From positions 558,001 to 622,000 of the forward strand of contig NZ_CP024965.1 in the NCBI RefSeq assembly GCF_002804005.1: a stretch of DNA of 64,000 nt, in the 5' to 3' direction. Position 1 is the first letter of the stretch. Every line of letters begins with the position of its first letter. The position numbers and the translations under genes were made by a program. This document shows, piece after piece, positions 50,277-50,750 of the stretch. Under the pieces are notes generated by a model that saw only the letters and a program-made list of their open reading frames with translations, made no database searches and was not told the DNA's origin. The stretch is from Williamsoniiplasma somnilux. Its GTDB lineage: Bacteria; Bacillota_I; Bacilli_A; Mycoplasmatales; Mycoplasmataceae.

Positions 50277-50342
50277 TTATTTACAACTAGTTCCGTTTGA
50301 TGCACAAGTACAGTCATTACATTTGCAATTGCAGTTACACAT
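50277..50342 (-). CDS. metallothionein-like mini-peptide, 21 aa
   Basis: Begins MCNCNCKCNDC; Cys occupies positions 2, 4, 6, 8, 11, 13 and 20, with four Cys-x-Cys spacings. No hydrophobic residue besides Met1 and one Ala. The ATG is 4 nt after the ArsR stop, and the regulator's last codons (GGA-GGT) supply the Shine-Dalgarno. Seven thiols in 21 residues could bind soft metals such as Cu(I), Zn or Cd. Too short for automated annotation. Function is inferred from composition and from coupling to an ArsR repressor. Confidence 0.65.
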   Translation of the reverse strand: MCNCNCKCNDCTCASNGTSCK

Positions 50343-50346
50343 AAAT

Positions 50347-50652
50347 TTATTTACCTCCATTTTGATAAATTTTATCCATATTCATAATAAAATGATGAAT
50401 TTCACTTAGCTTCTTAGCATTGAAACTATAATTTTTAAAAGTGCCCTCTTTTGTAACCGTAACAAGATCAGCTTCATGTAAAAATTTCATATGATACGAA
50501 AGTGTTGGTTGAGTAATGTTTAGGTTTTTTAGAATATTATTTGCACATAAACAATTAAGTTTTTCTTCTGCTAAGAGTGAAATAATTTTAATTCTTGTTG
50601 GATCAGATAGTGCTTTAAAAACTAAAGCATATTCTGCATAATCATGTTTCAT
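50347..50652 (-). CDS. ArsR/SmtB-family metal-responsive repressor, 101 aa
   Basis: A winged-helix repressor: FKALSDPTRIKIISLLA (helix 1-2), NCLCANNIL (Cys-x-Cys where CadC/ArsR-type sensors bind metal, alpha3), NITQPTLSYHMKFLHEADLV (recognition helix), and a beta-wing KEGTFKNYSF. Such proteins leave DNA when they bind metal. It is translationally coupled to the Cys-rich peptide. A 9+9 inverted repeat overlaps its own promoter, so autoregulation is likely. Confidence 0.92.
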   Translation of the reverse strand: MKHDYAEYALVFKALSDPTRIKIISLLAEEKLNCLCANNILKNLNITQPTLSYHMKFLHEADLVTVTKEGTFKNYSFNAKKLSEIHHFIMNMDKIYQNGGK

Positions 50653-50673
50653 AATTGTCTCCTTACAAGTATA

Positions 50674-50706
50674 ATTATAATCAAATATAGATAAATGTCT
50701 ATATTT
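50674..50706 (-). promoter_or_regulatory. promoter and operator of the ArsR operon
   Basis: TATAAT on the minus strand at 50674-50679 is a -10 box. Upstream, AAATATAGA (50683-50691) and its complement TCTATATTT (50698-50706) form a perfect inverted repeat with a 6-nt spacer. It spans the -35/-10 gap, a typical ArsR operator position. Confidence 0.65.
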
Positions 50707-50750
50707 AAATAGATATTTATCAATTTATGAATTTATTAATTAAAAAAATA

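Follow-up and report, generated by a model that had tools for sequence, protein, structure and literature searches.

In a 64-kb stretch of the Williamsoniiplasma somnilux genome (contig NZ_CP024965.1, positions 558,001 to 622,000; hereafter the window, with its first nucleotide as position 1), we find a gene for an ArsR/SmtB-family repressor followed directly by an open reading frame (ORF) for a 21-residue peptide with seven cysteines. The sequence evidence makes it probable that the two genes form a metal(loid)-responsive operon, the peptide being a mini-metallothionein derepressed by metal(loid) and the one effector left in an ars-type module that has undergone reduction. The strongest evidence for this predicted functional link is that the sensor, a putative operator and a Cys-rich peptide co-occur in related genomes despite an altered gene order; the ArsR-peptide system appears to be a module recurring in this bacterial family and no one-off.

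The regulator gene, arsR (50652-50347, minus strand; stop TAA at 50349-50347), encodes a 101-residue protein that matches ArsR family models above their curated cut-offs (HTH_5, 48.5 bits against a cut-off of 22; NF033788, 73.6 bits against 55) and has the winged helix-turn-helix of the ArsR/SmtB metalloregulators. Its structure model, with a predicted local distance difference test score (pLDDT) of 90, matches the folds of 6j05, CadC and CzrA, and a sequence search of the PDB returned as best matches 6j0e and 6j05, both As(III)-responsive ArsRs. The Cys-x-Cys which an earlier note on this DNA had placed in helix 3 is indeed present as Cys33 and Cys35, but in the model the pair lies in the loop or strand just before that helix (residues 37-44). 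Its position is displaced from that of the CxC canonical for ars-type ArsRs.

The peptide ORF, MCNCNCKCNDCTCASNGTSCK (50342-50277, minus strand), begins 4 nt after the arsR stop, with its ATG at 50342, and its GGAGG Shine-Dalgarno (50358-50354, minus strand) is embedded in the Gly-Gly codons near the end of arsR, 11 nt ahead of that ATG. The earlier note's description of a peptide ORF with seven Cys in 21 residues directly after ArsR, with the end of the regulator gene as its predicted ribosome binding site, is borne out. A 27-residue form in the ORF listing begins at an earlier ATG, one that lacks a Shine-Dalgarno. An ORF of this Cys density is found once in the window and not at all in 60 first-order shuffles of 64 kb. 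As an initial pattern without residue constraints, CxCxxCxC, proved too loose (60/60 genomes of the comparison set described below matched), we used the constrained motif C[KNT]CxxC[NT]C, which has a single match in the 868-kb genome and none in the reversed control. Its further matches, beyond the ArsR-linked peptides and those of a second genus (g7, see below), fell in large or unrelated frames and were dropped. In composition the peptide is metallothionein-like, with 7 of its 21 residues being Cys in CxC/CxxC patterns and none being aromatic. It has no match in Pfam (E 1), NCBIfam or the PDB, and the other peptides scanned likewise have none in Pfam at E 1, all being too short for a sensitive family test; metallothioneins are generally unfolded when metal-free.

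Upstream of arsR, the 9-6-9 inverted repeat AAATATAGA-CATTTA-TCTATATTT (50706-50683, minus strand; core ATAGA-N6-TCTAT at 50687-50702) coincides with a sigma-70-like promoter, TAGACA-16-TATAAT (50674-50701, minus strand; 11/12 consensus bases), overlapping its -35 box, much as the earlier note had it. The exact core is present in a single copy in the window, on this promoter, and an imperfect second copy of the operator with one mismatch, ATAGATATTTATCAAT, is found at 50709-50724 on the plus strand. Promoter-like sites overall were not above their shuffled frequency in the scan, and a search of the window genome for a second regulon member through the operator gave near-matches no commoner than those of a reversed-pattern control.

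We compared 60 genomes of the bacterial family, including a sister genus, g9; this is probably Spiroplasma, as g7 is probably Mesoplasma, both names being our unverified inferences. Relatives of the window ArsR are found in 14 of the 60 genomes, the weakest (E 7e-4) being a distant ArsR. All ten g9 genomes with this ArsR (10/10) encode an adjoining peptide of 21-28 residues with 6-8 Cys in a CTCxxCTCxxCxC-like arrangement (e.g., MLGIYSLCTCEVCTCTNCQCGK and MLNISTACNCDVCTCTNCTCSSCSCTK). Here the layout differs from the operon of the window: the peptide gene and arsR converge, their 3' ends facing each other across a hairpin, and the arsR promoters have no operator, which is instead located on the peptide promoter. 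The operator centre is the same ATAGA-N6-TCTAT as in the window, exact in nine of the ten and with one mismatch in the tenth. The operator as a whole reads as the near-invariant TTATCTATATAGATAGTTATCTATATAGATAA, directly ahead of the peptide Shine-Dalgarno, and with up to three mismatches allowed it is found at one place per genome in exactly those ten and nowhere else among the 60. The Cys positions of the peptides are constant while most others vary, and both TGT and TGC are used as Cys codons; this preserved Cys framework with mixed codons looks like selection on the protein and not on the DNA. Conservation of the Cys pattern beside ArsR, on which the earlier note had staked its claim, is thus seen in ten further genomes that share the operator although their genes are arranged differently. 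Among the ArsRs at the other related loci (L017-L082), most are of the CadC type or distant in some other way, with no Cys peptide adjoining them. As a separate observation, most of the g9 genomes looked at (L005, L006, L009, L013 and L014) encode, beside arsR and divergent from it, a predicted lipoprotein with a thioredoxin-like CPHC/CDHC/CEYC motif (SCSSN...FILYIGADNCPHC).

The operon layout is retained in a congener, G058, whose ArsR is 57% identical to that of the window and whose operator, ATAGATAATTATCTAT, has the same core. In this genome (L003) the arsR stop lies within TAGGAGG, and five bases on follows ATG TGT CCA GAT TGC GGA TGC TGC TAG, an ORF of 8 codons directly after arsR that encodes MCPDCGCC. 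The frame beyond the TAG continues with further Cys (CLFCQHKTNLC), and the short ORF may reflect either an extremely shortened peptide or the truncation of a longer one.

Several lines of evidence bear on the ancestry of the regulator. In a tree with some of the distant ArsRs L017-L082 as outgroup, 13 ArsRs of the window's family form one clade (98/93) within the ars-type group, and this joint group stands apart from the CadC-like ArsRs (100/98), with the bootstrap not fully settled. Relatives of the same ArsR type, drawn from plasmid and genome sequences, belong to arsenic operons: arsR-DUF2703-acr3 with arsC in Peptoclostridium, arsR-arsD-arsR-arsA in Enterococcus, arsR-arsD-arsA in Listeria and arsR followed by an arsenic transporter in Lactiplantibacillus; other matches are located ahead of acr3, arsM, arsD, arsC or an ArsP_1 permease. 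Moreover, many ars-operon promoters of other Firmicutes have the same ATAGA-N6-TCTAT core. The nesting in the tree, the ars-operon neighbours and the common operator core together make an arsenic sensor the most likely ancestor of the window regulator. The efflux, reductase and methylase genes of ars operons are not found beside the window arsR, and acr3 and arsB occur in none of the 60 family genomes (0/60), for which reason we class the locus as a relative of the regulator clade and not as an ars operon.

A further instance of this ArsR clade is informative in that it has no peptide. Among 15 genomes searched for heavy-metal P1B ATPases (the 13 carriers of this ArsR plus two congeners), one alone, G004, has such a pump above the curated cut-off, and G004 is also the only genome with this ArsR clade that lacks the peptide. 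The ATPase gene lies immediately before arsR on the same strand, and at about 36 nt ahead of the ATPase start is ATAGATAATTGTCAAT, an operator copy that deviates at one position. Pump and peptide thus appear, in what is a small sample, to replace each other under one type of regulator, an alternation that a common role in detoxification predicts. The N-terminus of the G004 pump is His-rich, with many NHSEH repeats (L206, G004:C1 near 598056-598524).

From these observations we propose the following mechanism. Apo-ArsR would occupy the operator and shut off its own promoter until a thiophilic metal(loid), bound by Cys33 and Cys35 (and by further Cys in the relatives), frees the DNA; the ligand would most likely be As(III) or Sb(III), with Cd(II), Zn(II) and Cu(I) as alternatives. 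The transcript would then be translated first into ArsR and next, from the Shine-Dalgarno within arsR, into the peptide, which would act as a tiny metallothionein and enclose the metal with its thiolates; as free metal drops, ArsR would re-bind. In these reduced genomes the peptide would fill the place held by efflux or modification genes in the relatives of the regulator.

Certain features weigh against this proposal. The 11-nt spacing between Shine-Dalgarno and ATG in the window is at the long end, and the G058 peptide ORF has only 8 codons. Two of the four genomes of the window genus have no such ArsR, and peptide homology between that genus and g9 is read from Cys spacing and context, with no alignable sequence. 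Finally, the His-rich pump of G004 suggests Zn, Cd or Cu there, rather than arsenic.

The last point bears on the identity of the ligand. One variant of the proposed operon, to be seen as a special case of it and not as its rival, has Zn(II), Cd(II) or Cu(I) as the physiological ligand. Here the ArsR would have moved away from the sensing of arsenite, and the peptide would buffer zinc or copper as SmtA or the fungal copper metallothioneins do. We regard this as a serious possibility, albeit one falling short of even chances: the same-clade ArsR of G004 adjoins that His-rich P-type ATPase with a similar operator, Cys33 and Cys35 are displaced from the canonical CxC, and Cu(I)/Zn(II) metallothioneins typically space their Cys as CxC/CxxC, while the nearest sequence relatives, the operator and the solved structures nearest by sequence all belong to arsenic-operon regulators. 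A bolder version, in which an arsenic operon has collapsed to a repressor and a chelating peptide of 21 residues (8 in the congener, MCPDCGCC) that serves as sole defence against arsenite and antimonite and represents an undescribed class of arsenic-binding mini-metallothioneins, is offered tentatively and seems to us rather unlikely.

Other roles for the peptide fit less well. It could be a metallochaperone or co-sensor that gives metal to ArsR or takes metal from it, perhaps derived from a Cys-rich C-terminal tail that split off an ars-type ArsR: such ArsRs do have Cys-rich C-termini (e.g., EDCNCKDCGFGCG in L016 and DECVCHNKNCSC in Listeria), and the window ArsR has none, the peptide beginning where the tail would lie. 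We nonetheless judge this improbable, as the ten relatives have the peptide on the opposite strand and an ArsR that still carries a CxxC tail, so that fission cannot account for all cases. It is very unlikely that the ORF is a Cys-responsive leader peptide, an attenuator in which translation matters and not the product, although a short Cys-rich ORF followed by a hairpin and a same-strand NAD-kinase gene would suit such a device, and Canestrari and colleagues reportedly described polycysteine upstream ORFs of mycobacteria as such attenuators in 2020. Downstream of the peptide in the ten relatives, its strand carries no gene ahead of a terminator-like hairpin and the convergent arsR, the operator is located on the peptide's own promoter, and the Cys are spaced as CxC/CxxC with no runs. 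In the window itself, the hairpin is a 13-bp stem-loop with a U-rich stretch (50235-50206, minus strand), a probable terminator 3' of the peptide and ahead of the NAD-kinase gene; the 86-nt two-hairpin fragment that includes it folds with a z of -3.85, and the terminator consensus scan left the hairpin at 50235-50206 unflagged, probably because its stem is A/T-rich. A chance, functionless ORF after arsR can be all but dismissed, for although short ORFs are common and the congener has merely 8 codons, the shuffled windows hold nothing comparable and Cys-dense peptides with the operator are conserved in ten further genomes.

The proposed operon invites comparison with known systems. Metallothioneins controlled by ArsR/SmtB regulators are already known as a kind: in the SmtB-SmtA system of Synechococcus, as predicted for the window, an ArsR-family repressor acts through a promoter operator on a Cys-rich metal-binding product. 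However, SmtA is a zinc-finger protein of about 56 residues encoded divergently from smtB, whereas here the product has 21 residues, is co-operonic with or convergent to arsR, and is paired with a regulator of the arsenic-operon clade; nor does the window peptide match the bacterial metallothionein family in sequence, a test that is insensitive at this length. With the arsR-acr3 and arsR-arsD-arsA operons of Firmicutes the locus shares the ArsR clade and the ATAGA-N6-TCTAT operator, but a Cys-rich peptide stands in the effector's place and acr3 and arsB are missing from the genome. In size, there is a parallel with the family-I copper metallothioneins of fungi (Neurospora crassa, Agaricus bisporus), which are about 25 residues long and likewise have seven Cys. 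The N. crassa protein binds six Cu(I) through its seven Cys (PMC13107397). The likeness is in size only, as these proteins are eukaryotic, have another Cys spacing and are not linked to an ArsR. MymT of Mycobacterium tuberculosis, a 4.9-kDa metal-binding product of a small, originally unannotated Cys-rich ORF that is required for copper resistance (PMC7558416), resembles the window peptide as a small Cys-rich ORF, the relation between the two having been compared by family searches only.

Cys-rich mini-peptides are also encoded without such an ArsR. All seven g7 genomes (L205, L089-L095, L113-L115), none with this ArsR, encode a 36-37-residue peptide with at least 11 Cys (e.g., MSDNKCTCKTCNCADCTKDGCTCKDCNCTMSECSCD), whose own promoter contains TTTATATACATA-like repeats in tandem, with AAGGAA...TTCCTT conserved directly ahead of GGAGG. 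Divergent from it (L090 1696-2016 and the equivalents in other g7 loci) is a gene for a protein of about 106 residues with a Cys-rich C-terminus, CDCC...C...CIVCHDC, a possible DNA-binding N-terminal part and no confident Pfam match; we consider it a candidate for a different metal sensor. In G077, from another family of the same order, a 24-residue peptide with 8 Cys, MKNLNCKCKTCNCKDCKCEKTCSC, is encoded at L142 1474-1593 with no such ArsR detected, and from this case similar peptides may be more widely spread.

We found no description of such peptides for this bacterial group in the open-licence literature. The system to which our observations point would rank with the smallest genetically encoded metal traps suggested in bacteria so far. 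It would extend metallothionein-type control to the near-minimal cells of a wall-less bacterium, and its regulator-operator pair would have been re-targeted from efflux pumps to a chelating peptide, the peptides being small enough for direct synthesis and testing. As genes of 21-28 codons lie below the usual limits of gene finders, annotation may consistently overlook a class of bacterial peptides that handle metal.
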